Positions 1,698-32,130 of a stretch of 43,507 bases of DNA are shown here, in pieces (the stretch's first letter is position 1; each line of letters starts with the position of its first letter). A program made the translations under genes and the position numbers. The notes beneath the pieces were generated by a model, which did not search any database, had not been told where the DNA came from, and saw only the letters and a program-made list of their open reading frames with translations. Origin of the DNA: Microcaldota archaeon (GTDB lineage: Archaea > Micrarchaeota > Micrarchaeia > Norongarragalinales > Norongarragalinaceae); assembly GCA_013360305.1 (NCBI GenBank), contig JABWCK010000003.1:1-43507 (forward strand), written 5' to 3'.

Positions 1698-1701
1698 AAA
1701 A

Positions 1702-1752: not shown

Positions 1753-1762
1753 AGCTTTTATA

Positions 1763-3809: not shown

Positions 3810-3890
3810 CCTCGACAAACTAAAGAAAGCTTTATTAATTTTTTAACTGTTAAAATTCTGATCATAATTTTGACGAGGGGGATTCATTAA

Positions 3891-6800: not shown

Positions 6801-6911
6801 TTCTGCTACAAGAACGCGCCAACTATAAGCGGAACGTACAATTACTACGTGTATGCTTGCACTGGAAGCGCTTGTAGTAGTCCAAAACAAGTAACGCTAC
6901 GCGTAAACTAA
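3891..6911 (+). CDS. Large secreted gametolysin-like metalloprotease with three Pro-Thr linkers
   Basis: A 1006-residue secreted protein and paralog of the preceding gene. It has a signal peptide (residues 1-22), then a charged helical segment (about 60-110) that may be a propeptide. The zinc motif [11 protein letters not shown] lies at 385-395 (H385, E386, H389, H395). A downstream [10 protein letters not shown] matches the metzincin Met-turn, and [12 protein letters not shown] and YYLEYR match the gametolysin (M11) pattern. Two homologous Cys-containing beta modules follow, then a terminal module. All are separated by Pro-Thr linkers. The terminal module shares 76 identical bases with the upstream gene. 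A GAGGGGGAT ribosome site precedes the ATG. Function is inferred as degradation of extracellular or host-surface protein; the substrate is unknown. Confidence 0.85.
5679..5750 (+). repeat. Pro-Thr coding minisatellite, protease 2 linker 1
   Basis: Near-perfect 6-base units encode an uninterrupted Pro-Thr run, marking the boundary between the catalytic region and the first C-terminal module. Unit variants differ mostly at third codon positions. Confidence 0.8.
6070..6180 (+). repeat. Pro-Thr coding minisatellite, protease 2 linker 2
   Basis: This is the longest of the linkers, about 110 bases of Pro-Thr units with one or two Ala replacements. Long runs of this kind can change length by slippage, which would alter spacer length without frameshift when whole 6-base units are lost or gained. 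Confidence 0.8.
6500..6611 (+). repeat. Pro-Thr coding minisatellite, protease 2 linker 3
   Basis: Pro-Thr units with interspersed Ala and Ile precede the last module. The composition matches the single linker of the upstream paralog more closely than the other two linkers here, consistent with the shared C-terminal module having been copied together with its linker. Confidence 0.8.
6738..6813 (+). repeat. 76-base exact repeat shared by both protease genes, copy 2
   Basis: Identical to 3599-3674, direct orientation, 3139 bases apart. Recombination between the two copies would delete one protease and leave a fusion with an intact reading frame. Confidence 0.9.
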
Positions 6912-11746: not shown

Positions 11747-11748
11747 TT

Positions 11749-12633: not shown

Positions 12634-14099
12634 TTCTTCCTCACTCTCTTCAATAATTCTTCCTTGTCGCTATAATACAACGCGAATACTTCACCTACTC
12701 CGTCAACAGTGTTAACGTCTTGTTTGACTAGCCAGTCGAGAATTTTTTGCTTTTCCTTCAAATCGTCAGCTACTTGTTCTTCATTCATTCTAGTAAAAGT
12801 CATTAACGACTCCATTAAACGAATGCTAGGCTGGTCTGGTTCGAATGAGTCTTTAAACGCCTTCCACTTGTATAAAATGCTTGCAGAAACGTGTTCTCCT
12901 TTTTCCGAAGGAATCAACTCGCCAACTTCAAAAACTCTTCGAATTCCTGAACGCTTGTCTCGATACATTGCTACGACTAAATGCAAGCTTTCAAGCATTA
13001 CTCCAGGCAAATCAATAGGCGGATTATTCAACCTGCGCAGTGTTTCTGAAACAGTTTCAGCATGCAAAGTAGCATAAACAGAGTGTCCAGTGTGCATGGC
13101 TTCAAACAATACTTGAGCTTCTTCTGCACGGCGGACTTCGCCGACGATTATCCTATCCGGCCTCATTCTCAACGAGTTAACCATTAAGTCAAGCATTTCC
13201 ACCTTGCCGTGTTCTTCAGCGCCTGTTTCTCTAACTACTAACGGAACCCACTGTAAGTGTTTTGGTAAAGTAATTTCTCGAGTTTGTTCAATGCTGATGA
13301 CTCTTTGGTTTTGAGGAATGAATGCAGTCAAAACATTCAAGAAACTAGTTTTTCCCGAACCAGTGCCTCCAGAAACCAGTACGTTCATTTCGTACTGCAT
13401 TGCTAGCCACAACAAGGCAGCTAGTTCTGAAGAAATAGTATTGTTCTTAATCAAGTCAGTAATAGTCCATGGTTTTCTAGCGAATTTACGAATAGTAATC
13501 GTATTACCAAACATGCTTATGGGAAACAAAGTAGCGTTTACACGATCGCCAGTAATCAAGTAAGCATCAAGCAACGGGTTTTGAATATTGATTTGCCTGC
13601 CAACGCGTCGTCCAATCAATCCAGCGTAATTGGAAACAACCGAGTCTGAAGGCAAGTTAATGTTAGTTTTAACCCAGCCGTGTTTTCGATGAAAAACCCA
13701 AATGGGTTCAGTGGATGAATTAATGCAGATTTCTTCAATCCAATCATCCTTCAACAAGAACTCGATCTTGTCTAAACCAAACATTTCTTGAAGCAATCTT
13801 CCCGCAATAATAGTTTTCTCGCGATCGGACAAGCTAGGGAATTTTGAATTTACTAAGGATTTCCCTTCGTCAGAAAATTTCTTTTTTAACTCCTTCAAGT
13901 TTCGGGGATCTAAAATTTCTTGATTGTTGAAAACCAAGTTCTTCAACAAGGTTTGTTTTAATACATTCAAGTAATTCTCAGTAGCTTCACCCAAGAAGGG
14001 AATTTCTAGAGAATAAATCGGAACGTATTCTCCTTCCTTGTTGGAAATAACTACTCTAGCAGGAACGCCGTCTGCTTCAATACTGTAAGAATCACTCAA
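12630..14099 (-). CDS. Pilus assembly ATPase (TadA/GspE/VirB11 family), locus 1
   Basis: A 489-residue secretion ATPase that powers pilus extension. It has an N-terminal regulatory domain, then the Walker A motif GGTGSGKTS near residue 243. An Asp-box-like VISIEQTREITLP, a Walker B region RPDRIIVGEVRRAEEAQVLFEAMHTGH and a His box TLHAE follow. It closely resembles the ATPase at 21533-23032, with blocks of identical DNA. It overlaps the small winged-helix-like gene upstream (14096-14099) and the F-domain gene downstream, so it is the centre of an overlapping operon. Specificity (adhesion pilus or other appendage) cannot be read from the sequence. Confidence 0.93.
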   Translation of the reverse strand: MSDSYSIEADGVPARVVISNKEGEYVPIYSLEIPFLGEATENYLNVLKQTLLKNLVFNNQEILDPRNLKELKKKFSDEGKSLVNSKFPSLSDREKTIIAGRLLQEMFGLDKIEFLLKDDWIEEICINSSTEPIWVFHRKHGWVKTNINLPSDSVVSNYAGLIGRRVGRQINIQNPLLDAYLITGDRVNATLFPISMFGNTITIRKFARKPWTITDLIKNNTISSELAALLWLAMQYEMNVLVSGGTGSGKTSFLNVLTAFIPQNQRVISIEQTREITLPKHLQWVPLVVRETGAEEHGKVEMLDLMVNSLRMRPDRIIVGEVRRAEEAQVLFEAMHTGHSVYATLHAETVSETLRRLNNPPIDLPGVMLESLHLVVAMYRDKRSGIRRVFEVGELIPSEKGEHVSASILYKWKAFKDSFEPDQPSIRLMESLMTFTRMNEEQVADDLKEKQKILDWLVKQDVNTVDGVGEVFALYYSDKEELLKRVRKK

Positions 14100-15855: not shown

Positions 15856-16249
15856 TTACTACCCCCCCTTGATTTGAAACAGTAAATGAATAATTAGCAG
15901 TAAAGTTTTCTGAACCCGAATAAACGCTAGGCGCAGTAATTCTGCACGAAACTATCCTTTCCCCATATCTTACTTGAACTAGCGAAGAATTACCGAAAAC
16001 AAGTATTTCGTAACCAATACCATTACTCAAAGTAGCCGGCAAGTCAACGCTTGAAGAATACCCATCTCCCGAAACGAAAGCATTAGAAAATGAATCTGCA
16101 ACTACGTCGCAAATACTGCTAGCTTCAGAGTAATTTTTCAATAATGCTAAGTCTGATTGCTTGGAAAAATACAAGCCAAAAGCTATAGCAAGCAATAACA
16201 AGAACAAACCGATTACTGAAATGAACTCTACAGAAGCTTGAGCGCGCAT
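15845..16249 (-). CDS. Minor pilin with class III signal peptide, locus 1
   Basis: A 134-residue protein beginning MRAQASVEFISVIGLFLLLLAIAFGLYF. This is a textbook class III signal (cut after Ala, Glu at +5). The head shows SSICDVVADSFSNAFVSGDGYSSSVDLPATL, which aligns well with RLCRLVRAEADSAFSAGSGYSGLFVLPDSL in the protein at 30054-30446. The two Cys are conserved in both (one near 47, one near 100), suggesting a disulfide. It is the first minus-strand gene of locus 1 and is divergent from another pilin at 16328. Confidence 0.88.
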   Translation of the reverse strand: MRAQASVEFISVIGLFLLLLAIAFGLYFSKQSDLALLKNYSEASSICDVVADSFSNAFVSGDGYSSSVDLPATLSNGIGYEILVFGNSSLVQVRYGERIVSCRITAPSVYSGSENFTANYSFTVSNQGGVVIVS

Positions 16250-16327
16250 GTTGAAAGAAATAAATCAAGAGCGCTTAAAACTAGTTTCGAATCTTTTAAA
16301 TTCAGCGTTAGAGTGGTTAATACGAAA

Positions 16328-16717
16328 ATGAAAGCCCAAGTAGCTTTAGAATACGTAGTCTTAATCATAATCAGTCTAGCGATAATAATTCCCGCATATT
16401 ATTTTTACTACAGCGACGCATCTGAACAAATACGCGTATTCCAAACAAAAAAACTAGTAAATGACGTAGCCGAAGAAGCAAACCACGCTTTTTTGCTGGG
16501 TCCGGGAACCATCACTAGACTAAACACGTTCATTCCACAAGGAATAGCCACTCAAGTGAAAAACCACACGATTATAGCCAACTTTAGTACTCGCGCGGGA
16601 GATAACCAGCTTTTTGCTAACACTATACCCTCAATAAACGGGTCCCTGCCGACAAGCCCGGGGGCATACCAAGTAACGCTTATTGTTCATGAAGACGAAA
16701 CCGTCGAAATAAGCTAA
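16328..16717 (+). CDS. Minor pilin with class III signal peptide, divergently transcribed
   Basis: A 129-residue pilin. I chose ATG 16328 rather than the longer frame from 16238 because the protein then begins MKAQVALEYVVLIIISLAIIIP, a standard class III signal with Glu at +5, and a TATA-like CTTTTAAATT lies about 30 bases upstream. The head has NHT, NFS and NGS glycosylation sites. By sequence pattern and position it is the counterpart of the pilin at 30476-30907, but here it is transcribed away from the locus, so an inversion separates the two arrangements. The KaiC-like ATPase gene follows 27 bases downstream. Confidence 0.85.
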   Translation: MKAQVALEYVVLIIISLAIIIPAYYFYYSDASEQIRVFQTKKLVNDVAEEANHAFLLGPGTITRLNTFIPQGIATQVKNHTIIANFSTRAGDNQLFANTIPSINGSLPTSPGAYQVTLIVHEDETVEIS

Positions 16718-16744: not shown

Positions 16745-17518
16745 ATGAAAAAAAAGAAATCTAAAATAGATTTTTCTAAAATAAAAGAAAAAATCAAGAA
16801 CGCGACAAAACCAGAAAAAACGAAAACTAACGTTGACGCGGTTTCAAGCGGAGTACCAGGCTTAGATGAAGCGCTAGGCGGCGGAATACCTAAGAACAGC
16901 TTCGTATTATTGTCAGGTTCAGCAGGAGCAGGCAAAAGCACTCTAGCAATGCAGTTCTTGCTTAACGGCTACGAAAGCGGCGAAAAAACAGTTTACGTTT
17001 CTCTAGAAGAAGACCCCGCTAAATTAATTAAAGATTTTAAAAACTTTAATTGGCCAATTCAAAAAGCAATTGATGAAAAAAAACTAATGATAGTAAAACC
17101 AGCAATATACAAGTTCGAGCCATTGCTTGAATCAATAAAAAACGTCGTGGAACGAAACAACGCAACTAGGCTAGTAATTGATTCTTCTTCACTACTAAGC
17201 ATGTATTTCGAGAAAGCATACGAAGTGCGCCGAGGCTTGGCGGAGCTAGACAGAAACATCAAGCGTTTAGGAGTAACTACTTTCGCTATTTCTGAAATAA
17301 TGGAAGGATCAAAATGGCTGTCCACTACAGGCGTTGAAGAATTCATTGCTGATGGAGTAATCATTTTACACATTACTAAAAACGAGAACGAATACACTCG
17401 AGCGTTAAGCGTTAGGAAAATGCGTTCGGCCAAGCACTCTTTGAAGATAATGCCGATGCAAATAAACAAGGAAGGAATCGTCGTCTACCCAGAAGAAGAA
17501 GTCTTTTCACAAGTTTAA
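16745..17518 (+). CDS. KaiC/RadA-like RecA-superfamily ATPase
   Basis: A 257-residue single-domain KaiC-type ATPase. After a Lys-rich tail (1-30), VSSGVPGLDEALGGGIP leads into Walker A GSAGAGKS at 58-65. VSLEEDP and a Walker B strand RLVIDSSSLL follow, with the ISEIMEGSKWLSTTGVEEFIADGVI segment typical of the family. KaiC-like proteins of archaea include ArlH, the archaellum ATPase, and various signalling proteins. Its placement directly after a pilin gene, on the same strand, suggests a role with the pilus apparatus. There is no other archaellum gene in the window to make ArlH the natural name. Confidence 0.88.
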   Translation: MKKKKSKIDFSKIKEKIKNATKPEKTKTNVDAVSSGVPGLDEALGGGIPKNSFVLLSGSAGAGKSTLAMQFLLNGYESGEKTVYVSLEEDPAKLIKDFKNFNWPIQKAIDEKKLMIVKPAIYKFEPLLESIKNVVERNNATRLVIDSSSLLSMYFEKAYEVRRGLAELDRNIKRLGVTTFAISEIMEGSKWLSTTGVEEFIADGVIILHITKNENEYTRALSVRKMRSAKHSLKIMPMQINKEGIVVYPEEEVFSQV

Positions 17519-18360: not shown

Positions 18361-19095
18361 TTAACGCTTTTTGTTTTGTACTCCAAATACTTTAGCGAAC
18401 GAATTGTCGCTGCAGCAAAAATGGGAAGAACTTTCCCATAACAAGAACATGAACACTAAAACTAACAATACTAACAAAGAATACAATTCTTGATAGCGGG
18501 AAAACGAGTATAAAATGAATGACTGAACTAAGAAGCTGAATACCGCAAATGCGTAAAGCATGGTGTTGTACCCTGAAACAAGCAATTCTTCCGATAATTT
18601 TTCCTTAATGGTTTTAGACCAATAAAGCAGGTTTAATGAAACTAGAGAATAAATGCCAAACAAAAACACGAGCATTTTGTCGTTTACGGATTCTAAAGAA
18701 ATGCGAATATTTACTAGATTCATTACTGCAAAAACTATTAACGACAAGACGACTAGAGATAGTATAAAGCTCAATGGTTTGAACTTTTCTTGTTTCTCAA
18801 TGAACCCGAATTCCTTCATTACTCCGACGTAGTAATACAGCGTTTTGTATTGGAGTAGTGCTACGACTAACGCAGTCAAATACAATAGCAAGTAGTATAA
18901 ATCGCTTACAGGGAAAGCTAATTGGTAAACGCCCAACAGTACTAAAAGAGTTGAAGCGATTATTGCGTATTTAGTCCAAGTAAACGATTTGCGAATGGTT
19001 TTTTCAAAAATAGTTTTTTTAGCATACCAAAACTTTAAGTAAACACTCGTAGCAAAAATCAAGAACGCCAACAAGAATAATAATACTTCAATCAA
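18361..19095 (-). CDS. Polytopic membrane protein at the end of pilus locus 2
   Basis: A 244-residue protein with about seven hydrophobic segments (near 3-22, 42-62, 65-87, 107-128, 140-160, 175-195 and 203-222), spaced by short charged loops. The C-terminus is hydrophilic, with a CC pair (HFCCSDN). It overlaps the degenerate KaiC-like gene by 4 bases (ATGA), so the two are translationally coupled. No family is recognised. The pairing of a polytopic membrane protein with a KaiC-like protein suggests a membrane sensor or docking partner for the pilus machinery; that is inference only. Confidence 0.7.
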   Translation of the reverse strand: MIEVLLFLLAFLIFATSVYLKFWYAKKTIFEKTIRKSFTWTKYAIIASTLLVLLGVYQLAFPVSDLYYLLLYLTALVVALLQYKTLYYYVGVMKEFGFIEKQEKFKPLSFILSLVVLSLIVFAVMNLVNIRISLESVNDKMLVFLFGIYSLVSLNLLYWSKTIKEKLSEELLVSGYNTMLYAFAVFSFLVQSFILYSFSRYQELYSLLVLLVLVFMFLLWESSSHFCCSDNSFAKVFGVQNKKR

Positions 19096-19622
19096 AGAGT
19101 AATCACCTTGTCTGAAAAGCGGGAAATAGCACTAATTAGCGATGGATTTGAATCATCTTCTAAAGATAAGAAGATGGAAGTAACGCCATTTATCCTGAAC
19201 CGGTTTATTAAAAAGTGAACGAATTTTTCCATAGAGCTCGAATTATTATAAATCAATAAAGTAGTTACTGAATCAAAGAAAACGAATTTACTGCCGGTTA
19301 TTCCATTGATTGCTTCGTTTATAGCAATGCTTATGCCCGTCAAGTTTTTAGGCGATACGAACAAAGCATTTTCATCTCTAGTAGAAGATCCTTTTACTAA
19401 AGAAGAAACGCAGTCAATGAAAAACAAGTTTTCTGAATTGATTTTTTTGCTGGAAAATAATTCTTCAAAATAAGAAAATGGCTTGTTCGTGGTAACGAAT
19501 ACGCCTGCATCGTTTTTAGAAAGCAATTGCTTTACTAAGTCGACGTTAGCTTCTAAGTACTTGCTTCTAGGAACTAGAACTAAGACGATTTTGTCACTTA
19601 CTAGTAAACTAGCGTTTTTCAT
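19092..19622 (-). CDS. Degenerate KaiC-like (RecA-fold) protein without a P-loop
   Basis: A 176-residue protein whose strands read like a KaiC domain: IVLVLVPRSKYLEANVDLVKQLL, GVFVTTNKPFSYFEELF, LFFIDCVSSL, SPKNLTGISIAINEAI, KFVFFDSVTTLLIYN, FLINRFRINGVTSIFLSLE. I find no Walker A motif, so ATP hydrolysis is unlikely. I place the start at ATG 19622, four bases after the F-domain gene stop. A longer start at 19673 would overlap that gene by 47 bases and add a hydrophobic stretch without a family match. It may be a regulatory partner of the pilus ATPase or of the intact KaiC-like protein at 16745. Confidence 0.7.
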   Translation of the reverse strand: MKNASLLVSDKIVLVLVPRSKYLEANVDLVKQLLSKNDAGVFVTTNKPFSYFEELFSSKKINSENLFFIDCVSSLVKGSSTRDENALFVSPKNLTGISIAINEAINGITGSKFVFFDSVTTLLIYNNSSSMEKFVHFLINRFRINGVTSIFLSLEDDSNPSLISAISRFSDKVITL

Positions 19623-19626
19623 TTTT

Positions 19627-20670
19627 TTAACCAAAGAATGAACCAAGCAAGCCGTTAATAGCGCTGTAAGCAAAGAAGAATATTCCGAGCGAACTAATTA
19701 CGAATACTGGCGCCAGCTTTACTCCAGCAGTCCATCTACCGTTGCGTATTACGCCCAGAATTAAAGCGCCAAAAAAGTTAGTAAAGAATATGCTGGCCAC
19801 CGCGAACCAGTAAATATCTTGAGAACTGATTTTTTCTTCATTATTCTGGCCAGGTTTTACAGTAAACAAACCTCCAGGAACTCGTCCGCCTTGTACTTGA
19901 CTAGTATCGATATTTGAAGTAGCAGCTGCTTGTTTTTCAGTAACACTCTCGTTAACTCCCGAGTAAAAAGTACTAACCGCAAACAAAACAGGCGAAACGA
20001 GCACTGAAGCAAAAATAATGAATATAACGTAAGTAATTGTTGAACGAGAAATTTCTCGCTTGATGTTTTGAGAATTTCTAATATCATCCGCTACTTCATC
20101 AAGCAATTGAACCATTTCTCCACCTAAGCGAATGCCTTGAGTGATCAACTTGATAGACCGGTCTAGTGTTTCCGAACGAACGCGTTTAGTCATTTTTTGC
20201 AGTGAATCAGAAATAGTAACTCCAGAAAACGTGTCTGCACTAACTCTGCTTATTTCATCTCTGAAAACGCCGAATTCTGGGCGTGCTGCACTCCAAAAAG
20301 CGTTTTCTAAAGTCATTCCTGCTTTCAAGTTTGAAGAAATAATCTGCAATGCTGACGGCAGAATGTCTTCTATTGCTTTAGCTTTTTTTTCGGCAGCATC
20401 AACTAAGATAAAGTAAAACAAGAATAGTGAAACAACGAAGCCCATTACTGCAGCTAAGACGTGGAATAATTGTTGTTCAGGCGGCAAGTACAATGGCGCT
20501 AAAAAGAACAATAATAAAGAAATTGACGATGAAAAGAACAATACGAATCCTAAGAATAATCGCGCATCCATCGTATAACCAGCTTGCACTAGCAAGTCAG
20601 ATATTCTATCAGTTAGTTTCTTTGGAAATATTTTAGACAAGACATAATAGAAACGATTGAAGGAATTCAT
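19627..20670 (-). CDS. TadC/T2SF-family pilus assembly membrane protein, locus 2
   Basis: A 347-residue F-domain protein, the positional counterpart of 10799-11746. It has two N-terminal membrane segments (about 35-60 and 65-95). The cytoplasmic domain reads IEDILPSALQIISSNLKAGMTLENAFWSAARPEFG and ITQGIRLGGEMVQLLDEVADDIRN. Distal membrane segments lie at 215-240, 290-310 and 320-342. An extra loop of about 35 residues rich in Gly/Gln/Ser separates the last membrane pairs and is absent from the locus 1 protein. A 4-base overlap couples it with the gene upstream. Confidence 0.9.
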   Translation of the reverse strand: MNSFNRFYYVLSKIFPKKLTDRISDLLVQAGYTMDARLFLGFVLFFSSSISLLLFFLAPLYLPPEQQLFHVLAAVMGFVVSLFLFYFILVDAAEKKAKAIEDILPSALQIISSNLKAGMTLENAFWSAARPEFGVFRDEISRVSADTFSGVTISDSLQKMTKRVRSETLDRSIKLITQGIRLGGEMVQLLDEVADDIRNSQNIKREISRSTITYVIFIIFASVLVSPVLFAVSTFYSGVNESVTEKQAAATSNIDTSQVQGGRVPGGLFTVKPGQNNEEKISSQDIYWFAVASIFFTNFFGALILGVIRNGRWTAGVKLAPVFVISSLGIFFFAYSAINGLLGSFFG

Positions 20671-21557
20671 GTGAAAGGCCTCCTGCTTCCTACAAAGTTC
20701 ATGAAGAACAATTGGAACCCAATTATTCCAACTATTACAAATACCAAGAACAATTTAGGAATCGAAATATTCAAGAAAGAAGTAATTACTATCAACATAG
20801 TGATTCCTAAGCTGGGAACTATTACTGCCGCCATCATGTACATCATAGTCCAGGGAGATAATTCTTGACCATAAGAGTGAATTTTATCAATTTGTTCAGT
20901 AGTAATATCGTCGAGAATGGTTCCGAGGGCGTCTGAGACATCTGATCCTACTTTAATTGCGTTAGCTACTTGCCACAATACTTTCTGGAATGACCTGGAA
21001 GGAACGCTTCTAGAAGCGTCAGACAACGCGTCTACTTCGGGAGTTCCTGCATTGATTTTTTGGACGATTTTCTTGAATTCCTTGCTTACTTCACCGTAAT
21101 CATCAGCTACTGAAGCCATAGCATCGAATAAAGTGACGCCAGACCTTAATTGTATTAATAATTGCCTTACTGCTGGAATCAAGTTTTTTTCATAGGCTCG
21201 GCCTTTGCGTCTAGCAACGATTTTAGGATAAATCAAAATAGTACCAAACGAAGCTAAACCAATAACGATTACTCCAACCAGTACGAAAAGCAAGGGAATT
21301 TTTATCGCTATAGCGACTATTGAAAACAAGAATCCGGAGAAGAAGGAATTAGCCATAGCAACAGCCAAAGCAATTCCGTAGTATTCTTGCGCTGAGTAAG
21401 TGTAATCCGCTTGAACTAAATCTTCCTGCAATGAATCGAAGTGTTTTGAAAAAACAGTCGTTAACCCGAGCATTCGTTTTGACAATGCCACTACTACCTT
21501 AGGAGGCAGGAAACTGAACGGAATTACTTGCTTCATTTCTTCAATAAGTCCTCGCAC
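20667..21557 (-). CDS. TadB/T2SF-family pilus assembly membrane protein, locus 2
   Basis: A 296-residue F-domain protein, the counterpart of 11749-12633. Diagnostic segments are KNLIPAVRQLLIQLRSGVTLFDAMASVADDYGEVSKEFKKIVQKINAG and VLWQVANAIKVGSDVSDALGTIL. These align well with the locus 1 protein. Membrane segments lie near 62-85, 90-115, 235-260 and 265-290. The 5' end overlaps the ATPase gene by 25 bases, longer than the 4-base overlap in locus 1. The start may therefore be at Met8 instead (21536), which would reduce the overlap to 4 bases. Confidence 0.9.
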   Translation of the reverse strand: MRGLIEEMKQVIPFSFLPPKVVVALSKRMLGLTTVFSKHFDSLQEDLVQADYTYSAQEYYGIALAVAMANSFFSGFLFSIVAIAIKIPLLFVLVGVIVIGLASFGTILIYPKIVARRKGRAYEKNLIPAVRQLLIQLRSGVTLFDAMASVADDYGEVSKEFKKIVQKINAGTPEVDALSDASRSVPSRSFQKVLWQVANAIKVGSDVSDALGTILDDITTEQIDKIHSYGQELSPWTMMYMMAAVIVPSLGITMLIVITSFLNISIPKLFLVFVIVGIIGFQLFFMNFVGSRRPFT

Positions 21558-23032
21558 TTGTTACTCTTAACACAGTTCAACACGTAATCCTTATCTCTAT
21601 AATACCAAGCGACTACTCGGCCTACAGAATTTACGTCCCTAATGTTGTTTTTCAACATGAAGTCTAGAATGCTTTCTTTTTCCTTCAAGTCTTGAGCGAT
21701 TTCCTTTTGACTAAAACCAGTGTGAAGCGTAAGCTCGTTAGTCATTCTAACAAAATCGCCTACTTTTTGAAGCCTATCCGTCCTAGGATCCCACTTGTAA
21801 ATCAAGTTTAATGATACTTTGTCATCGCCTGGAACTATTTCTGCCACTTCATAAGTGCGTCTAATACCCGTTCTCCTTTGACGATATTGCACTACCATTA
21901 ATTGAAGAGAACTCAAAACCGTTTCAGGAACATTAATCGGAGGAGAAATCAAACGAGTTCTTGCTTGAGACGCGTCATCAGCGTGCAGCGTGGAGTAAAC
22001 AGAGTGTCCAGTGTGCATGGCTTCGAATAATACTTCTGCTTCTTTTTGTCTACGCGTTTCACCTAAGACTATACGGTCAGGCCTCATTCTCAACGAGTTA
22101 ACCATTAAGTCAAGCATTTCTACGCCTCCTTTTCCTTCAGGGTTTGGTTGGCGAGTAGTCATAGGAACCCAGTGAAGGAAGTCAGGCAATACTAACTCGC
22201 GAGTGTCTTCAATGCTTAAAATTCTTTGAGTTGGAGGACAGAATAATAATATAGCGTTCAAGAAACTAGTTTTTCCTGAACCCGTTCCTCCAGCAACAAT
22301 CATGCTCATTTCGTACTGCATTGCCAGCCAAAACAAGGCTGCTGCTTCAGAAGTCAAAGTATTTAGTTTAGGATCAATCAAGTTGACTATCGTCCACGGG
22401 TCTTTAGCGAATTTCCTGACAGTAATAGTGTTTCCCTTGCTGCTGATAGGCATTAAAGTAGCGTTTACTCTAGAACCACTCAACAAGTGAGCATCCATTA
22501 ATGGATTCAAGTTGGTTATTTGCTTCCCGACGCGGCGGCCAATAATTGAAGAATAATTGTGTATTTGTTCTTCGCTTTTGAAGAAGACGTTAGTCTTTAA
22601 CCAACCGTATTTTTTGTGGTAAACCATTGCAGGTTGAGTGCTTCCGTTGACTACTACTTCTTCGAGAAAATCGTCAGCAAACAAGAATTCTAACTCGCCT
22701 AAACCAAGCATGTCTTGGATTAACCTGCCGACTAAGACGTCTTTCTCTGAATCAGTCATTCCTTGAAATTCGGAGTTAATTAGTTGGTAAGTTCGCGAAA
22801 CTATTTTCTTTTTTACTTCTTCAGCTTGTCTCGGATCCAATAATTCAGAGATTTTTACGTCAACGGTTTCAATGATTTTTTCCTTCAAGTAATCCAAAAC
22901 CAACCTAGTTGGTTCCTTGATGGTAGTGTGAATTACTTCATAAGAATCAATATACTCTTCATCTTTTCTGCTTACTATTATTTTTGCAGGAACATTTTCG
23001 CTTACTACAGAATACTCGCCTAAAACCTTCAT
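21533..23032 (-). CDS. Pilus assembly ATPase (TadA/GspE/VirB11 family), locus 2
   Basis: A 499-residue secretion ATPase, clearly paralogous to 12630-14099 along its length. Walker A is GGTGSGKTS near residue 250. The Asp box is ILSIEDTRELVLP, the Walker B region RPDRIVLGETRRQKEAEVLFEAMHTGH, and the His box TLHAD. Unlike the locus 1 enzyme it has an extended C-terminal tail with Cys (NCVKSNKCEDLLKK). Overlaps 4 bases with the upstream winged-helix-like gene. It would energise assembly of the appendage made by the locus 2 prepilin-like proteins. Confidence 0.94.
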   Translation of the reverse strand: MKVLGEYSVVSENVPAKIIVSRKDEEYIDSYEVIHTTIKEPTRLVLDYLKEKIIETVDVKISELLDPRQAEEVKKKIVSRTYQLINSEFQGMTDSEKDVLVGRLIQDMLGLGELEFLFADDFLEEVVVNGSTQPAMVYHKKYGWLKTNVFFKSEEQIHNYSSIIGRRVGKQITNLNPLMDAHLLSGSRVNATLMPISSKGNTITVRKFAKDPWTIVNLIDPKLNTLTSEAAALFWLAMQYEMSMIVAGGTGSGKTSFLNAILLFCPPTQRILSIEDTRELVLPDFLHWVPMTTRQPNPEGKGGVEMLDLMVNSLRMRPDRIVLGETRRQKEAEVLFEAMHTGHSVYSTLHADDASQARTRLISPPINVPETVLSSLQLMVVQYRQRRTGIRRTYEVAEIVPGDDKVSLNLIYKWDPRTDRLQKVGDFVRMTNELTLHTGFSQKEIAQDLKEKESILDFMLKNNIRDVNSVGRVVAWYYRDKDYVLNCVKSNKCEDLLKK

Positions 23033-23944: not shown

Positions 23945-24535
23945 TCACCTGCAGGCATATGAAAACAATCTTTTGATTCTTCCCTGGTTGACCATGGAAA
24001 TAGTTAAAACCAAGGGATTATTGTCTCTTACAGTTGAAGTAAATTTTTCTGCTTTGTTAGAGTAAAAAACGCATTTTTCGCCTTGAACCCACTTATCGCA
24101 TTCAAAGCTTAAAGAAATTTTTTCTTCAGCCCAATCAGGGTTTCCAGAATAAAGAGACGCATCGATTACTTGAGAATAGCCTTGAACGTTGTTAGTGAAC
24201 TCAAACGAAAAAGAACCATCGTAATAGACAGAATTCAAATCAAGGAAGTCGAAACCGCTTATTTGCTTGCACAAGCTGAAGAATTCTCCAGCATGGCAGT
24301 ACCCGTATTGGCTTACTTTTTCATTAATTAAAGGAGTTATTAGTTGATTGAATGAATTAGCTACCGACAACGCCAAGTAATCATCGCCCAAGCAAGCGTT
24401 AGCATTCACAGTAGGAGACGGAGTTGGAGTAATAGTTGAAATAGGAGTAGGCGTCAACGTAGGCAGAGTAAAAGAATCTTGTTGTTCGACGCATCCAACG
24501 CAAAACAAAGCCAGCAAGACTAATAATTTTTTCAA
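23945..24535 (-). CDS. Putative lipoprotein with Thr-Pro linker, pilus locus 2
   Basis: A 196-residue exported protein. The N-terminus KKLLVLLALFCVGCVEQQDS ends in a lipobox-like VGC, so Cys15 is the likely lipidated residue. A short Thr-Pro linker (about 27-44) leads to a domain with six or so Cys (NACLGDD, YGYCHAGEFFSLCKQ, SFECDKW, GEKCVFY, FSYACR), suggesting disulfides and an extracytoplasmic location. There is no counterpart in locus 1, so it is an accessory gene of locus 2. Overlaps 4 bases with the upstream gene. Function unknown. Confidence 0.7.
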   Translation of the reverse strand: MKKLLVLLALFCVGCVEQQDSFTLPTLTPTPISTITPTPSPTVNANACLGDDYLALSVANSFNQLITPLINEKVSQYGYCHAGEFFSLCKQISGFDFLDLNSVYYDGSFSFEFTNNVQGYSQVIDASLYSGNPDWAEEKISLSFECDKWVQGEKCVFYSNKAEKFTSTVRDNNPLVLTISMVNQGRIKRLFSYACR

Positions 24536-25464
24536 TCAAGGTCAACTCCGTACTTAAAAGCATTAGTAGGATCGATTTTAAATAAGGGGTGATTGAACTC
24601 GGAAGAATTTACAGAATAACCTGCAGGCGTAGTGTCATTGAAATAATAATAATCAACATGACTCTGGTTGGCTTTGATTATCAATCCTTGTGAAATAAAT
24701 TCGTCAACATCAACAAAAGACTCTAACCCTTGGGAAGAATAAACCAAGTGCGTTTTTCCTTCAAGTCTCTCTAAAAATCCCGGTCCAGAAACAGAAGGCA
24801 AATAAACCTTAGTCGAAACCGCTTGATCTAACGCTTCAGGTCCGTAAATAATTGACTGGTTTAAAGACACTTGCCTCTTTACTAAACCAAACGAACTCAA
24901 AGTATACAACGGGTCTTCAATACCATCGGTAGAAACTCTAGATTCAGTAGAAAAAGTCCTAGAATAATTAATTCCTTCATACTTGCTTACTAAATCTACT
25001 TGAAGCGTAGCGTTGAACAATACTTCAAAACCACTTCGTTGCGAAATACTCAAGTTAACTAGTGAAACGTTAGAATCAAACCCAAAAAACTTGCTTTTAG
25101 CCTCCAAACGAGTAATCCATTCCGATAAAGAATTATTTCCCATTAATTGAGAAACGTTTCCGCCATAAGTCTTATTCAACAACAAACTCTCCAAGGCAAT
25201 GGTAGAGTTAACTGCAGGTTGACCGGTTGAAACTATTTCAGCAACTAAAGCAATTACCGCGCTTTTAGAACTAATTTCTAATGCTCTAGGAAAGTCATTA
25301 TCTACTGAAGCAGCATAATTAGCTAACTCTCTACCAACTAGTTTCCTAGTCAAGTCTTTTTCATTAGCAGAAGTAAATTCATTAGAAGTTAAAACTAACA
25401 ACACTATTGGAATCAACAAAAGCAAAACTATCAACGAATAAAAAAATCCTTTTTTCAATTCCAC
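24532..25464 (-). CDS. Membrane-anchored extracytoplasmic protein, pilus locus 2
   Basis: A 310-residue protein with one N-terminal membrane anchor (KKGFFYSLIVLLLLIPIVLLVL) and a large beta-rich exported domain rich in Ser, Asn and Val. Several Asn-X-Ser/Thr sites occur (NST, NKT, NVS, NNS, NLS, NAT, NQS, NDT), which could be N-glycosylated. Position and N-terminal pattern pair it with the 236-residue protein of locus 1. It overlaps the VWA gene by 10 bases and the lipoprotein gene by 4. No known family is recognised. Confidence 0.7.
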   Translation of the reverse strand: MELKKGFFYSLIVLLLLIPIVLLVLTSNEFTSANEKDLTRKLVGRELANYAASVDNDFPRALEISSKSAVIALVAEIVSTGQPAVNSTIALESLLLNKTYGGNVSQLMGNNSLSEWITRLEAKSKFFGFDSNVSLVNLSISQRSGFEVLFNATLQVDLVSKYEGINYSRTFSTESRVSTDGIEDPLYTLSSFGLVKRQVSLNQSIIYGPEALDQAVSTKVYLPSVSGPGFLERLEGKTHLVYSSQGLESFVDVDEFISQGLIIKANQSHVDYYYFNDTTPAGYSVNSSEFNHPLFKIDPTNAFKYGVDLD

Positions 25465-28400
25465 ACCACTACAGTTACTTCAGTCGGCCCCCAAAAGAAC
25501 GGGACTTGCTGGCCAGACAATACATCTATTGAAACGCTTTCGCTCAATTGAACATCAATTGGGTTGCTGAAACTACCCGGCAAACCAGAACCGCTCGCAT
25601 TAACTAAATTAAGCAATGAAAGCAACCTCAACAAAGCATCATCCACCGCGTTCGAAGAAGTATTTAGTTGGTCTACTCCGACGTAACTAGAACCCGCGGA
25701 CTGTAATCCGTCACCAACAGTCAAGTCAACCGAACCGTCTGGAACGCCATCAAAATCAGAATCGTAAAAGACAGTAGCATTTCTCGCCTTGCATTCTGAG
25801 AAAATAGACGAATATCCTACTACCGCCTTGACTCGCAAACCATAAATCACACGATTATCTTGAGAACACAAATTGCTTACCGAAGTAGAATTAGACCCCA
25901 ACTTAACAGTTAACACGTTGTTTTCATCATTCGCTACAAAACTAGCCGGGAACTCCACCAAGAACGGGTCTCCTAGTTTAGAGTAAACCGCGCCGTAATC
26001 ACCTAAATAAAACACGTTGTTGTCACCCAACGAATTAGAAATAGTTACGTTTGAAGTCCATAAGTCTGCAGAGTAAGAAGTTACTTTGACGGATTCAACG
26101 CTTAATTGAGGCGGAACGAAGAAAGATCCCTGACAAGATGGAAACTTGTTGGTTTCTTGAGTTAATAGTATTTCATTAAACTCGTAATCTGGATTAACTG
26201 GATCAAAAGAAACTTCAATATACGAGTCAGGATACAAACTAGTAACCACGTCACCAGTAGCAATGACTGTTTGAGAAGCAGTGCTTTGCTGAATAATTTT
26301 TTCAGCAATGTTCTGGAAAGCGAATTGAAGCTCGGTGGCGTTATTGCTTAAATAGACGCTTCCATTACCGCAGCTAGCTATAGCATTTAAAGTAGAGTTA
26401 GCTAAACCACAAGTAGTTATTGGACCAAAACCTACAGAGTAAACAGTACCGTTTTGTTCATTGTGAACACGGCATGAACTATAATTCGCGTTAAGCATCG
26501 GAATGTTTTGAGTTAGTGAACAAGAATCGTCATCACTACAAGTCAAACCACTAGTAGAATTACCAGAATACAAGTAAGCAGGGAACGTTTGAGTCCATGA
26601 CGCGCCGTTCCATTCAACTACCCCGCCTCGAGAATTTCCTAAAGCAAAACCAAGCGTAGAATTAATTATCCTAATAGTATTCAACGCATAGCTTCCGGAG
26701 TAAACTTGACTCCAAGTAGAACCAGTCCAACGATAAATTCTGCCATCATCAGTTGTAACGAATGCTAAAGTAGAGTTAAAAATGTGGACATCGGTTACAG
26801 TCATGCTTCCCAAGTCTTGGTGAAGCGTCCATGTTGTTCCAGTCCAGCGATAAATTTGTCCACTGCCACCAACAGCAAAACCTAAACTCGAATTGAAAAC
26901 ATCCACCGAATAAAAATTAGTGTTTCCCACATCTTGATATAAGGACCAAGTGTTTCCGTTCCAACGATAAATTTCTCCACTGCTTCCAACAGCAAAAGCA
27001 AGAGTCGAATTATACACTTTAACTCCACGCAAGTTTGAATTTCCTACATCTGTTTGTTCGCTCCAAGTAGTTCCAAACCACCTAACAATTTTACCCGAAG
27101 CGCCTACAGCAAATCCTAGCGTAACATTATACAAGTCAACATCATACAAGTCTTGGCTGCCTAAGTCTTGGGACTCGCTCCAAGAAACGCCATTCCAACT
27201 AAATATTTTATAAGAAGCGCCAACCGCATAAGCAACGCTTGAATTCAAAGCATCAACTCCATAAATAGAATTGCTAGTAGTTGAAGTCGCCGCGCTCCAG
27301 AACGCGTTGTAGTGCACAAACGCTCCAGACTCTCCGCCTTGAATAGTAAATGAAGAATTACTGGCTAAAGCGTTTGAATCAAAACAATAATCAGTACTTC
27401 GATAGTTAGGCACTCCGTCAGTCATCATTACCACGAACCTATTCCTACCTTCAGAGGGCCATTGTGCTAAAATGTTGTAAGCATCATTGATAGCGCAAGA
27501 AATACACGTGCCACCGCCAGTCGAATAAGCATCAACAGCCGCCTTTAATGAAGTAGCATCAGTGCTTAAGTTTACTGCACTGGTTGAAGTGCTGAATGAA
27601 ACTAAACCAATCCTGTTGCCAGGTGTTGCTAAAATAGTGTCAATGAAGTCTTTGTCTACACATTTAGCCACGCTTATTCTTGAAGTAGTTCCCAAGTTAA
27701 TGTTTGAAGAAGAACAATTAGTTACAGTAGTACCAGTAGTTCCATCTTGGTTTACTCTCCAAGCCATAGAACCAGAAACATCTGTTACTAGAATAATATC
27801 TGCATTACCAATGTCGCCACCAGTAATGTTTGCTTCCAAACCTAGTCTCAAAGGAATAGTCTTCAAGCTCAAGTCATCAAAAGAAAAAACGTTAGTGAAA
27901 TTACTGGAATCAACGAAGATTACTCTATCAGAAGAAGTGCTGCCCGAGTCATTTAAAATAGTATAATTACCAACAGTCAAGAAAGTAGTATAATTATTCT
28001 TCAAGTGAAGACTCGCCGAAATATTCGTCACAGTACCAGGAACATAAAGAGAGGAATACTCGTTAACTAACCCATCAACGCCAGTAAAGTAAAAGCGAGT
28101 CGTGTTTTCATTTCCAGGATTGAAGGAATTAGTATCGTAAGTGACTCTGACAAAACCACCGCCAATAAACTGGTTTTTCACATTGCTTCCAGTAAAGTTT
28201 AATTTAAACAAGTTGCTGGAACCCAAGTTTAAAGCACTCAAACAACTTGCATCCGAAACCGTCCACGAATCAACTGACGCGTTGCCTGCAGTCTTGTTGA
28301 ATAAACCGCAATCATAATTATTAACGAACAAAGTAAAGTTGTCGCCTGCATTAAACTCTAAATAAATGTTTGACACATTAGCATCAGCAGGAATATCCGT

Positions 28401-28982
28401 CAAATAAAAGGACAAATTACCCTGTCCGATAAAACCACCCATGAAATAAAAACTCTTTTCTTGTTTTCCGCCTATTTTTTTCAAAGAAGCCCTAGAAACA
28501 CACCCCGTAGCAGGAAGCCCTTTAGCAACGCCAGAAACAAGCCTACGGCTTAAAGCTAATGCATCGTTAGTTCCAGGCTCGCTAGTGTTAAAAACAACAT
28601 CAGTAGAATAATACAAAGCATAATGCAAGCTGGGATTCATTACTTTGCCAAAAAAGTATTGGGATAAGTTTCTAGCAATAGACAAATTCCCCGAGTCACC
28701 AGACGCCCAAAAACCACCAATTAATTCCATCATGGTTTTGTTCACGTCAGTAGAATCCAAAACGCCTTGATTGAACAAGTCTTTAACATACGGGTCAGTT
28801 AACAAGTCCGAAACCTTTGTTTCTGCAAGCAAGTTTACAGACTCCACTGCCGTAGAATGCAAGTTTTCATTATAAACCGCAGGATTAAGCAAATTGTTTG
28901 AAGCTAAATACAAAGCAGGCAAAGCGATTAACACTAGCAATAACGCAAACAAAGCGTCTAAACTGAAAACTAAACCCTTCAC
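25455..28982 (-). CDS. Giant prepilin-like surface protein: VWA domain split by a beta-propeller
   Basis: A 1175-residue exported protein. The N-terminus MKGLVFSLDALFALLLVLIALPAL is prepilin-like. Residues about 160-390 form beta-rich domains. A von Willebrand A domain starts near 395 with the MIDAS motif DVSGS (Asp401, Ser403, Ser405) and continues to MMTDGVPN near 520. Then comes an insert (572-800) of six repeats of about 39 residues, each with a glycosylation site, FAVGxSGxIxRW and a Gly-x-x-Trp; this looks like a beta-propeller. The VWA fold resumes at TVYSVGFG (about 847) and ends NIAEKIIQQ (about 890-898). A C-terminal domain with DSDFDGVPDG follows, possibly calcium binding. Probably a metal-dependent pilus-tip adhesin. 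It holds the place of a 126-residue protein in locus 1. Confidence 0.88.
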   Translation of the reverse strand: MKGLVFSLDALFALLLVLIALPALYLASNNLLNPAVYNENLHSTAVESVNLLAETKVSDLLTDPYVKDLFNQGVLDSTDVNKTMMELIGGFWASGDSGNLSIARNLSQYFFGKVMNPSLHYALYYSTDVVFNTSEPGTNDALALSRRLVSGVAKGLPATGCVSRASLKKIGGKQEKSFYFMGGFIGQGNLSFYLTDIPADANVSNIYLEFNAGDNFTLFVNNYDCGLFNKTAGNASVDSWTVSDASCLSALNLGSSNLFKLNFTGSNVKNQFIGGGFVRVTYDTNSFNPGNENTTRFYFTGVDGLVNEYSSLYVPGTVTNISASLHLKNNYTTFLTVGNYTILNDSGSTSSDRVIFVDSSNFTNVFSFDDLSLKTIPLRLGLEANITGGDIGNADIILVTDVSGSMAWRVNQDGTTGTTVTNCSSSNINLGTTSRISVAKCVDKDFIDTILATPGNRIGLVSFSTSTSAVNLSTDATSLKAAVDAYSTGGGTCISCAINDAYNILAQWPSEGRNRFVVMMTDGVPNYRSTDYCFDSNALASNSSFTIQGGESGAFVHYNAFWSAATSTTSNSIYGVDALNSSVAYAVGASYKIFSWNGVSWSESQDLGSQDLYDVDLYNVTLGFAVGASGKIVRWFGTTWSEQTDVGNSNLRGVKVYNSTLAFAVGSSGEIYRWNGNTWSLYQDVGNTNFYSVDVFNSSLGFAVGGSGQIYRWTGTTWTLHQDLGSMTVTDVHIFNSTLAFVTTDDGRIYRWTGSTWSQVYSGSYALNTIRIINSTLGFALGNSRGGVVEWNGASWTQTFPAYLYSGNSTSGLTCSDDDSCSLTQNIPMLNANYSSCRVHNEQNGTVYSVGFGPITTCGLANSTLNAIASCGNGSVYLSNNATELQFAFQNIAEKIIQQSTASQTVIATGDVVTSLYPDSYIEVSFDPVNPDYEFNEILLTQETNKFPSCQGSFFVPPQLSVESVKVTSYSADLWTSNVTISNSLGDNNVFYLGDYGAVYSKLGDPFLVEFPASFVANDENNVLTVKLGSNSTSVSNLCSQDNRVIYGLRVKAVVGYSSIFSECKARNATVFYDSDFDGVPDGSVDLTVGDGLQSAGSSYVGVDQLNTSSNAVDDALLRLLSLLNLVNASGSGLPGSFSNPIDVQLSESVSIDVLSGQQVPFFWGPTEVTVVVWN

Positions 28983-30061
28983 CTTACTGCCACCAACAAC
29001 TGCATTACTGCAAGCCTATTCTTACCTACCCCGATCAAAACAGGGCGTTTTACTAGAAAAACATCTTTTTCAGAAACAACATCTTCTCCGAATGACATTT
29101 CTTTACCTATTAAATTAAAGAATTCTTTAGATGTTTTTCCTTGAGACGTCATAGAGTAATCACTCAAGAAGAAAACAAAACCATTGCGTACACGAGAAAA
29201 ACCTGCAAGAGAATGATTCTCGCTGGAAATAACTGAAACAAAACCAGGCTGAGTAGAATTAACAGCCCATTCTTCACCTGAAAAAGACACTTCATCTCCT
29301 ACACTGGCATTGAATACTAAAAAGCTTTTTTGAGATATTTCGGCATTAAAAGAGTTGATTTTTTCTAAAGCAAAAAAAGCACTAGCCGCGTTTTCAGAGC
29401 CGCCTCCTTCGAAAACAATTACTCCCCCATTGTCAAGGAAAACATTCAACAAAGAAGAATTAATTGATGCATTCAAGTCTTCAAAAACAATAGTCGAGTA
29501 AGAATTAATATTGCTAAACAAGTTAGACAAAACTGTTGATTCATCTCCCGAAAAATACTGGCCTTCGCCGTGACTGCTTCCTTCGCCCGCCGCGTCATAA
29601 AAATCCCAATCTAAACCACTATCCGATAAATCCGTTAACAAGCTCGAATCAGTTCCAGCAAAATAAGCAATTTTTTCAAACAATACTCCTGAACGAATAG
29701 GCGTAGACTCATTTGAAAAAACTAGTTGGTAATCATAATTACCCAACCCAAGCAATTCACGACTCGAATCATAATCCAACAAAGTCAATTCTAAAAACTT
29801 AGCAGGATTAATCGATTTACCGTCACTTAAGCCAATACCGGAAACATCATTCTTACTCCAATCAATCGGAACGCCTTGAGTTCTAATCAACGAGTCAGCT
29901 GCACTAGTAGCGTCAACAACTAAAGCACTCCTTTGCTTGAATGCGCCAATCTTTGCATTAGACTCGTTCCAAGCAACACTAACTAAAGACACCGCCAGCA
30001 AGAAAACAACTACGCTTAACACTGCATCGCCGGAAAAAACTTGCCCGCGGCGCTTACACAT
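28979..30061 (-). CDS. Prepilin-like protein with large exported domain (RRGQxFSxD type), locus 2
   Basis: I set the start at ATG 30061, giving 360 residues beginning MCKRRGQVFSGDAVLSVVVFLLAVSLVSVAW. A longer start at 30085 is open but would overlap the upstream gene by 32 instead of 8 bases. The variant prepilin-like signal is as in the 140-residue locus 1 protein. The exported domain contains a Rossmann-like stretch (STIVFEDLNASINSSLLNVFLDNGGVIVFEGGGSENAASAFFA), reminiscent of ThuA/GATase-like folds, and ends with FVFFLSDYSMTSQGKTSKEFFNLI. The function is unknown. A 4-base overlap couples it with the VWA gene. Confidence 0.75.
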   Translation of the reverse strand: MCKRRGQVFSGDAVLSVVVFLLAVSLVSVAWNESNAKIGAFKQRSALVVDATSAADSLIRTQGVPIDWSKNDVSGIGLSDGKSINPAKFLELTLLDYDSSRELLGLGNYDYQLVFSNESTPIRSGVLFEKIAYFAGTDSSLLTDLSDSGLDWDFYDAAGEGSSHGEGQYFSGDESTVLSNLFSNINSYSTIVFEDLNASINSSLLNVFLDNGGVIVFEGGGSENAASAFFALEKINSFNAEISQKSFLVFNASVGDEVSFSGEEWAVNSTQPGFVSVISSENHSLAGFSRVRNGFVFFLSDYSMTSQGKTSKEFFNLIGKEMSFGEDVVSEKDVFLVKRPVLIGVGKNRLAVMQLLVAVR

Positions 30062-30446
30062 TAAAGAACAAGAACCCGTCAACATTATTCACCAAGTTTT
30101 CTCCTTTTACTAAAATACCACCAAACGCGTCAGACTGAAGAATAGCCTCGCAATGATTATTAAACCACTCAAAACGCACCCTGCTTTCGCCCGGAATTAG
30201 AGTAGCATTATAGGATTGCCCAAGCAACGAATCAGGCAATACAAACAATCCCGAATAACCAGAACCAGCTGAAAAAGCAGAATCGGCCTCAGCACGAACT
30301 AACCGACACAAGCGCTCTCCCTCTAAGCTAACGCGAGAATCAAGCAAGTCTGTTTGCCTCTCGAAGTAAACGAAAGTAAAAGCTACAAACATCAATAACA
30401 AGATTGTTACTATAGCCATTAATTCAATTGAAACTTGCGCTCGCAT
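30054..30446 (-). CDS. Minor pilin with class III signal peptide, locus 2
   Basis: A 130-residue protein starting MRAQVSIELMAIVTILLLMFVAFTFVYF, a standard class III prepilin signal with Glu at +5. The head RLCRLVRAEADSAFSAGSGYSGLFVLPDSL aligns with the locus 1 pilin at 15845, including two Cys (CRLVR; NNHCEAIL). This pair gives some of the clearest evidence that the two loci are paralogous. It lies 29 bases downstream of the next pilin gene. Confidence 0.87.
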   Translation of the reverse strand: MRAQVSIELMAIVTILLLMFVAFTFVYFERQTDLLDSRVSLEGERLCRLVRAEADSAFSAGSGYSGLFVLPDSLLGQSYNATLIPGESRVRFEWFNNHCEAILQSDAFGGILVKGENLVNNVDGFLFFNV

Positions 30447-30975: not shown

Positions 30976-32130
30976 ATGGCGTTGAAAATACTAAAAACAA
31001 AGCAAGGATTCCTAGCAGAAGACGATTCAACAGTACAATCACTACTGAAAGGATTTTTCGGCGAGCCATACCAAGGCAAAAAAAACAAACTAGTACTCCA
31101 ACCAGAAGAAGTTCTTTACTTAATGGACGTACGCAACGCAGAATGCACTGAAAACGGAGTAAAAAAAACATTCAACGAAATCGCTTTACCATTCGTAAAA
31201 GAAAAAAAATTCTTAGCCAAATACTTCTGCTATAGAGACTGGCGAGACCGAGGAATAATCGCAGTAAAAATAACTAAAAACGAGAATTACGGACGCAACC
31301 CAATCATAAAATATCCATCTCAAGAAACGCACTACGCCAAAACTAATCAAACCGCGTTATTTTTTCAAGACGACTTAATGTCAATAATCGACTCCGAAGA
31401 AGCCAAAGACTTGTACGAAAACCATTGGTTCGGCCAGTGGGGAACATACAAAGCCAAAAAACACGGCAGCTTCTTGAAACTAGACGCTTTCGAAACAATC
31501 TTCCTAGGAAAGCATTGCTCGCTTAAAACCAATTACTCAATCGACGCAATACAAAAGAAAGCTCGTTCACGCAGGAAAGAATTCAACCAATTATACGACG
31601 TATACGAAGACTTACGCTTAAGGGGATTCGTCGTTAAAACCGGATTCAAATTCGGAACGCATTTTCGCTTATATTTTCCAGGCGCTTCCCCATCAAGAGA
31701 AGGCGACGAATGGATGCACTCCAAACACGTAATCCACGTCTTTCCACGCGAAAGCAGGCTATTAATCTCTGAATGGAGTCGAGCTATTCGCGTCGCCCAC
31801 GGAGTCAAGAAAACATTTATCCTAGCAATTCCTGGAAAAAAACGAGTAGAAAAAACAAGCCTAGACTACTTGTTATACCACCGAGAAAAAGGCTCGCCTG
31901 AAACGCCTTCCACTGGAAAACCCAAGTACGTAATGCTTGCGTTAAGCGAAGAAGAAGAAATAGGCGGAGCAGAACTAGCCGCTGCAATAACCGAAGCAAC
32001 ACACCTAGGCCTAGACTTAGTTATAGCAATATGCGATAGAGAAACCTCAGTAACTTACTACCGAATCAAAAGAATCGACTTGCCAAAAAGTCGTTTTGAA
32101 TATTACGAAATCGAATGGGAACAACCCTGA
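30976..32130 (+). CDS. endA: tRNA-splicing endonuclease, three-unit (epsilon-type) form
   Basis: A 384-residue endonuclease that cuts introns at bulge-helix-bulge sites in pre-tRNA. The central catalytic unit reads YEDLRLRGFVVKTGFKFGTHFRLYF, with Tyr233, and MHSKHVIHVF, with His248; the Lys is 278 or 279 in HGVKKTF. A degenerate N-terminal unit (1-180) precedes it. A C-terminal unit of the structural beta type follows (KYVMLALSEEEEIGGAELAAAITEATHLGLDLVIAICD). The length exceeds one-unit (about 180) and two-unit (about 300) archaeal enzymes and fits the three-unit homodimeric type known from ARMAN-related archaea, which accepts relaxed substrates. The tRNA-Lys here has no intron. A small unknown gene follows 13 bases downstream. 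Confidence 0.92.
   Translation: MALKILKTKQGFLAEDDSTVQSLLKGFFGEPYQGKKNKLVLQPEEVLYLMDVRNAECTENGVKKTFNEIALPFVKEKKFLAKYFCYRDWRDRGIIAVKITKNENYGRNPIIKYPSQETHYAKTNQTALFFQDDLMSIIDSEEAKDLYENHWFGQWGTYKAKKHGSFLKLDAFETIFLGKHCSLKTNYSIDAIQKKARSRRKEFNQLYDVYEDLRLRGFVVKTGFKFGTHFRLYFPGASPSREGDEWMHSKHVIHVFPRESRLLISEWSRAIRVAHGVKKTFILAIPGKKRVEKTSLDYLLYHREKGSPETPSTGKPKYVMLALSEEEEIGGAELAAAITEATHLGLDLVIAICDRETSVTYYRIKRIDLPKSRFEYYEIEWEQP

Follow-up and report, generated by a model that had tools for sequence, protein, structure and literature searches.

A VWA domain split by a beta-propeller in a candidate tip adhesin of an archaeal type IV filament

The locus

The window (the whole stretch of 43,507 nucleotides of archaeal DNA that we analysed) contains ten genes in a row on its minus strand, between 30085 and 18361, that overlap or almost touch. 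Several of these genes encode the assembly machinery of a type IV filament, and one encodes a protein of 1175 amino acids with a VWA domain (Table 1). The best NCBIfam relative of the assembly ATPase is FlaI, although its score against that family (288 bits) is under the family's cut-off. In related genomes, filament operon genes adjoin most of the relatives of the VWA protein whose contigs are long enough. The conserved genes that flank the VWA gene, on both sides, encode proteins with pilin-like N-termini.

Table 1. Features of the VWA gene and of the filament operon, in window coordinates.
Feature	Position	Strand	Extent or content	Basis or remark
VWA gene, whole	25455..28982	(-)	1175 aa: carrier N-half, VWA split by propeller, carrier C-half	ORF
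N-terminal (K/R)(G/A/S)-xxF(S/T)LDA and hydrophobic helix	28890..28982	(-)		resembles pilin-type class III signal
Carrier N-half	27801..28982	(-)	residues 1-394	no Pfam family; kept in relatives
VWA part 1	27381..27800	(-)	residues 395-534, beta-1 to beta-4	Pfam VWA and VWA_2 above cut-off
MIDAS motif DVSGS	27768..27782	(-)	residues 401-405
Thr521-Asp522 of TDG motif	27417..27422	(-)	shortly before insert	D522 is the last MIDAS residue
Inserted propeller	26571..27380	(-)	residues 535-804	blade HMM; best Foldseek match YCF48
Probable degenerate first blade	27267..27377	(-)	residues 536-572	aligns with repeat 1 of L032 and L033
Six clear 39-residue blades	26583..27266	(-)	residues 573-800	sequon between first two strands of each
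VWA part 2	26289..26570	(-)	residues 805-898: helix, beta-5 TVYSVGFG, beta-6, last helix	completes Pfam match when joined to part 1
Carrier C-half	25458..26270	(-)	residues 905-1175	no Pfam family
Operon gene upstream	28979..30085	(-)	368 aa, RRGQVFSGDA N-terminus	overlaps VWA gene by 4 bases; homologue beside relatives
Operon gene downstream	24532..25464	(-)	310 aa, KKGFFYSLIVLLLL N-terminus, sequon-rich	conserved neighbour
Filament assembly ATPase	21533..23032	(-)	T2SSE	best NCBIfam relative FlaI
Membrane platform protein 1	20667..21557	(-)	T2SSF
Membrane platform protein 2	19627..20670	(-)	T2SSF
Candidate pilin	16238..16717	(+)	Pfam Class_IIIsignal 19.7 bits, below cut-off	homologue near some relatives

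Full-length relatives can be aligned to the 1175-residue protein over its whole length. The N-terminal pattern is present throughout the family, and F6, D9, and A10 are invariant in 12 aligned members. A Pfam scan of the protein gave no Class_IIIsignal match, and if it is cleaved after the G/A/S residue, then its acidic residue would be Asp at +6, where +5 is usual. We consider this N-terminus to be pilin-like, which is not decisive for assigning the protein to the pilin class. In one relative (L045), the N-terminal half of the carrier joins the C-terminal half directly and the VWA domain is absent, so the VWA domain is nested within the carrier. Pfam matched no Ig-like family in the 1175-residue protein.

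The protein has 37 N-glycosylation sequons, or 3.15 per 100 residues (the mean after shuffling was 21 sequons). The neighboring gene at 24532 has 3.87 per 100 residues, while the filament ATPase, one of the platform proteins, EndA, and LysRS have 0.2-0.6. Such richness in sequons compared to those four fits an exported protein that is probably N-glycosylated.

The filament genes are not the only ones of their kind in the vicinity. T2SSE ATPase and T2SSF genes occur again at 9447-14099, a few kilobases from the first set, and there are six places with T2SSE in the whole genome, which is many for 0.8 Mb. KaiC-like ATPase domains are encoded beside the filament operon (16745-17518 and 19092-19673), and one of these (DUF7504) is inside the operon.

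The VWA domain resumes after the insertion

In the native protein, the Pfam model for VWA (PF00092) covers residues 395-531 only, which corresponds to positions 1-119 of the 174 in the profile. As judged from the columns of the MIDAS alignment, all five MIDAS residues are present (D401, S403, S405, T492, and D522). An earlier note, made by a model from the sequence of the window, had claimed that the last strands and helix of the domain come only after a series of repeats. The motifs that it named are all where it had placed them (DVSGS at 401-405, TDGVPN at 521, the repeats from 572 to about 800, TVYSVGFG at 846, and IAEKI at 892-896, with residue 395 at nucleotide 27800).

When we joined residues 394-532 to residues 821-923 and rescanned the result with Pfam, the VWA match extended over positions 1-170 of 174 and scored 45.7 bits (the cut-off is 23.8). 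In contrast, three controls in which the C-terminal part had been shuffled scored 33.9-34.3 bits, and their matches ended at profile positions 119-128. Excision likewise lengthened the VWA match in four relatives (L033, L035, L037, and L039), to position 171-173 of 174; the native matches in L033 and L037 end at 117 and 115. Since excision extends the match beyond that of the shuffled controls, and does so in relatives as well, we place the tail of the VWA domain after the insert, and at the level of sequence the splitting of the domain is well supported. In an AlphaFold model of residues 373-930 from the single sequence, the propeller is visible and the VWA domain has pLDDT of 20-45. An assembly artefact was considered and rejected, as the same junction is found in several genomes from six family-level groups.

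A propeller of probably seven blades

The insert starts about 13 residues past the MIDAS Asp522, in the stretch that leads from beta-4 to the helix after it. To recognize its repeats, we used a blade HMM that was derived from 31 repeats from relatives, with the window's own protein excluded. It found six blades at residues 573-799 with scores of 27-59 bits, and a weak further blade at 550-572 with only 4.0 bits. In four relatives (L032, L033, L038, and L039), the same HMM found seven repeats. Because these four have seven and residues 536-572 align with the first of these repeats, we read the insert as a propeller that probably has seven blades, the first of them degenerate. The six repeats of the earlier note are thus well supported as blades, but its count for the whole propeller is probably one too low.

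An AlphaFold model of residues 527-840, again from the single sequence, has 24 strands and a pTM of 0.70, with block means of pLDDT of 56-90 across 577-796; over the strands of the six clear blades, pLDDT is mostly 60-90. Against the PDB, Foldseek matched the model best to YCF48 propellers. The corresponding Pfam family (PSII_BNR) scores 22.9 bits in the 1175-residue protein, below its cut-off of 27, and is above the cut-off in L039 (56.4 bits) and L037 (33.0 bits). YCF48 resembles the insert in the sequence of its blades as well as in structure, but it is a stand-alone assembly factor for photosystems, whereas here the propeller is inserted in the VWA domain of a protein from a pilus locus. 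Tectonin-2 is among the Foldseek matches with the highest TM-score to the target (0.69 over 237 columns), and a Trp is conserved in the propeller repeats.

The earlier note had also described a glycan-rich platform. There is indeed an N-x-S/T sequon in each of the six clear blades, always at position 8 of the repeat and between the first two strands; given the general topology of propellers, these six sites would share one face. But this is nothing special to the propeller: its density of sequons (2.6 per 100 residues) is no higher than that of the protein as a whole, which is sequon-rich throughout, so we rejected the idea that glycans are enriched there.

The insert varies among relatives

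We searched 301 genomes of the class (the same 301 make up the phylum in this survey) and considered a match with E ≤ 1e-20 to be a clear relative. Clear relatives of the 1175-residue protein are present in 17 of the 301 genomes. In 11 of the 301, from six family-level groups (f1, f4, f7, f17, f19, and f21), the propeller lies within the VWA domain (G000, G005, G007, G009, G013, G016, G022, G047, and G072, along with G077 and G079, where the gene is on split contigs). No relatives were found in viral contigs, and among named genome contigs the search gave only a weak match from Acidobacteria, over the propeller.

Two relatives, L042 (from genome G066) and L043 (from G019), have an uninterrupted VWA domain and lack the propeller. 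There, 53-54 residues separate the DG motif from the beta-5 motif, versus about 325 in the 1175-residue protein. The relative without any VWA domain (L045) is from G017. L044 (G011), L046 (G072), and L049 (G057) have, instead of the propeller, an insert with CARDB domains that follows beta-2 of the VWA domain; L047 (G072) is similar, but the end of the contig cuts its sequence off. The insert after beta-2 in these four is about 600-1150 residues long, with L047 truncated as just described. Yet another insertion site is used by L040 and L041, two gene copies in one genome (G003), which have at least about 340 residues between beta-4 and the helix after the MIDAS Thr.

Genome G013 carries the gene for a VWA domain with a propeller twice in tandem (L037, 3258-8339 and 8473-12375). 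The first copy (1693 amino acids) has at least nine recognizable blades at the same loop of the VWA domain, which might be two propellers. In this copy, the MIDAS motif reads DLSAS in place of DxSGS.

All five MIDAS residues are kept in the nine propeller-bearing VWA domains that we aligned (9/9), and DVSGSM is retained in the CARDB-bearing L044, L046, and L049. At the same positions, the propeller-free VWA domains have E, A, S, P, D (L042) and A, S, S, S, D (L043). Both of these genes (L042 at 361-3066 and L043 at 2828-5653) lack D401 and have a change at T492. This would fit a joint loss of the insert and of metal binding, a lead that comes from these two propeller-free cases only.

In trees of the two halves of the carrier, the states of the insert are intermixed. 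The propeller-free L043 is sister to the propeller-bearing L034 and L035; in the tree of the N-terminal half, L042, also propeller-free, clusters with L050 and L011; and the copies from G003 are placed among propeller-bearing members. Well-supported pairs in the tree of the propeller are concordant with the tree of the carrier. Comparing these trees by eye suggests that the propeller is old and has been lost or replaced several times.

Arms at this loop are known from pilus tip proteins

Searching the PDB with the single native sequence gave weak matches only, so we used a profile of the excised VWA domain instead. Among the best matches were Mfa5 (6.1e-14), GBS104 (3tvy and 3txa), RrgA (2ww8), and PilB of Streptococcus sanguinis (7b7p). 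The best match, Mfa5 of Porphyromonas gingivalis (6tnj and 6to1), is the tip protein of Mfa1 fimbriae. Its alignment has a gap from profile position 135 to 150 that holds about 100 residues of Mfa5 and then resumes. In Mfa5 this insert is ARM2, which lies between the fourth strand and the fourth helix, a position that is common to RrgA and GBS104, and the extra loops form a lid above the MIDAS cleft (PMC7835359). Mfa5 is like our protein in having its VWA domain nested in another domain, an intact MIDAS, and an arm at the beta-4/alpha-4 junction. It differs in that ARM2 is a small, proline-rich, calcium-binding subdomain and not a propeller, and in belonging to a type V fimbria of a bacterium with type IX secretion. 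RrgA and GBS104, the tip adhesins of sortase pili, also have inserts around the MIDAS (ARM1 and, at this same position, an ARM2 that is 123 residues long), but their ARM2 is no propeller either, and they are Gram-positive proteins. The earlier note's claim that a single VWA fold is interrupted by a propeller on its metal-binding side is supported at the level of sequence by the excision test, by the uninterrupted relatives, and by a homologue of solved structure whose own insert sits at this junction (PMC7835359).

Other tip proteins share part of this arrangement. PilB is a type IV pilin that carries a VWA domain with two arms (PMC8179133). In PilB, as may also hold for our protein, a carrier of the type IV pilin type bears the VWA domain; the two arms of PilB flank the MIDAS, and its adhesive role has been shown. 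But its VWA domain comes after the pilin module and is not nested in a carrier, and its second arm is a four-stranded sheet. The type IVa pilus tip adhesins PilY1, PilC, and ComC combine a VWA domain and a beta-propeller in one protein, but the propeller in these comes after the VWA domain, at the C-terminal side, belongs to a different family (IPR008707), and has the role of a carrier; none is inserted in the VWA domain. Pfam finds no match to the IPR008707 (Neisseria PilC-type) propeller in the 1175-residue protein, whose own propeller is internal and PSII_BNR-like. The VWA domain of ComC from Acinetobacter has lineage-specific inserts that are important for function (PMC10374093). CpaL of the Caulobacter Tad pilus has a pilin-like N-terminus, a VWA domain that is split by a beta-rich domain, and a predicted position at the tip, but its insert consists of two beta-barrels between the DxTxS of the MIDAS and the Thr, and these point away from the metal site.

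Among pilus-tip proteins, an arm at this loop of the VWA domain is thus an already known design. The earlier note knew of no standard VWA family with such a layout, and this needs correcting: close precedents are the arms that PilB has (PMC8179133) and the ARM2 inserts in RrgA, GBS104, and Mfa5 (PMC7835359). Our literature search found no description of a propeller inserted in the VWA domain of a pilus protein, or of a propeller as ARM2, and encountered no archaeal case of an arm at this loop.

Proposed role of the split VWA protein

We propose that this protein is probably the adhesin at the tip of a type IV filament in this archaeon, and that in it the propeller is an ARM2-like arm beside the MIDAS that sets the ligand. 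The hydrophobic pilin-type helix at the N-terminus and the two-part carrier would hold the VWA domain outward in a position like that of a minor pilin; we place it at the tip because of the filament operon around its gene. The VWA domain would bind a divalent metal at the MIDAS. The YCF48-type propeller, which replaces the loop after the MIDAS Asp, would act as an oversized ARM2 next to the metal site, and the two together would form the cleft that binds the ligand. If the insert is swapped, lost, or moved, then the ligand may change, with no alteration to the carrier or to the assembly machine.

A VWA domain can serve in pilus priming or force sensing without being part of an adhesin, and this counts against a role in adhesion. 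The protein might mainly be a force sensor or an assembly primer, as has been proposed for PilY1 and CpaL, in which case the VWA domain would deform under tension and the propeller, rather than being a ligand platform, would act as a stiff lever or as a point of contact with minor pilins. CpaL is a VWA minor pilin with a beta-rich insert, a proposed position at the tip, and a candidate role as a mechanosensor (PMC12607857), and the conserved genes with pilin-like N-termini on either side of our VWA gene would suit such a function, as would the retention of the carrier in relatives whose insert varies or is absent, as would follow if the essential function lay with the carrier. We nevertheless think this unlikely, since an insert that sits beside an intact MIDAS and is exchanged among relatives fits ligand specificity better, and since deleting just the VWA insert of ComC gives the phenotypes of losing the whole protein, in adhesion, twitching, and DNA uptake (PMC10374093).

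It is less plausible still that the propeller acts as a lectin for carbohydrates, of the tectonin type or another, that the VWA domain only happens to host, with no part for the MIDAS in binding. Tectonin-2 is a sugar-binding propeller lectin, and both its structural similarity to the insert and the conserved Trp of the repeats are what one would expect of a lectin, but the best matches by sequence and by E-value are to YCF48, which is not one. Neither the retention of the MIDAS in every aligned propeller-bearing member nor the non-propeller inserts of other relatives would be expected either. As for the reading that there is no insertion at all, so that the VWA domain would be complete before residue 535 and residues 805-898 would be an independent fold, it accords with the end of the native Pfam match at residue 531. 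But the comparison of the excised protein to its shuffled controls, the relatives with an uninterrupted VWA domain, and the alignment to Mfa5, which picks up again after that protein's own insert, make it very improbable, and on the strength of the excision test and the relatives we rejected the idea that the VWA domain is not completed after the insert.

If the tip-adhesin proposal is right, then a design seen in tip adhesins of very different bacteria extends to an archaeal filament. The loop beside the metal site is able to hold a complete beta-propeller. The tip of the pilus looks like a holder of exchangeable gripping parts. More tentatively, the VWA domain may serve as a socket across one archaeal (probably DPANN) phylum: unrelated modules at three of its loops (the propeller after beta-4, chains of CARDB domains after beta-2, and another domain before beta-4) might be exchanged among close relatives and so change which partner cell or surface is gripped. 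Archaea with genomes as small as this one probably rely on partner cells, and few of the proteins with which they recognize their partners are known. A tip adhesin with a swappable arm would be a concrete and testable candidate for this recognition. Relatives that bear the propeller, a different insert, or no insert at all, and the one that lacks the VWA domain, provide a natural series for comparison.

Other genes in the window

The DNA is archaeal as judged by aIF2-gamma, KEOPS, and a LysRS of the archaeal type. The genome size of 0.82 Mb and the domain layout of the tRNA intron endonuclease described below hint at a DPANN lineage akin to Micrarchaeota. Two large proteins (669 and 1006 amino acids) are encoded at 1763-6911 and have no sequons at all. 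One of the pair has no Pfam match at E of 0.1 and the other has none at E of 0.001. The tRNA intron endonuclease at 30976-32130 (384 amino acids) contains two stretches that match the N-terminal domain in Pfam and two that match the C-terminal domain; in this it resembles the three-unit epsilon-2 type of the ARMAN (Micrarchaeota) lineages.
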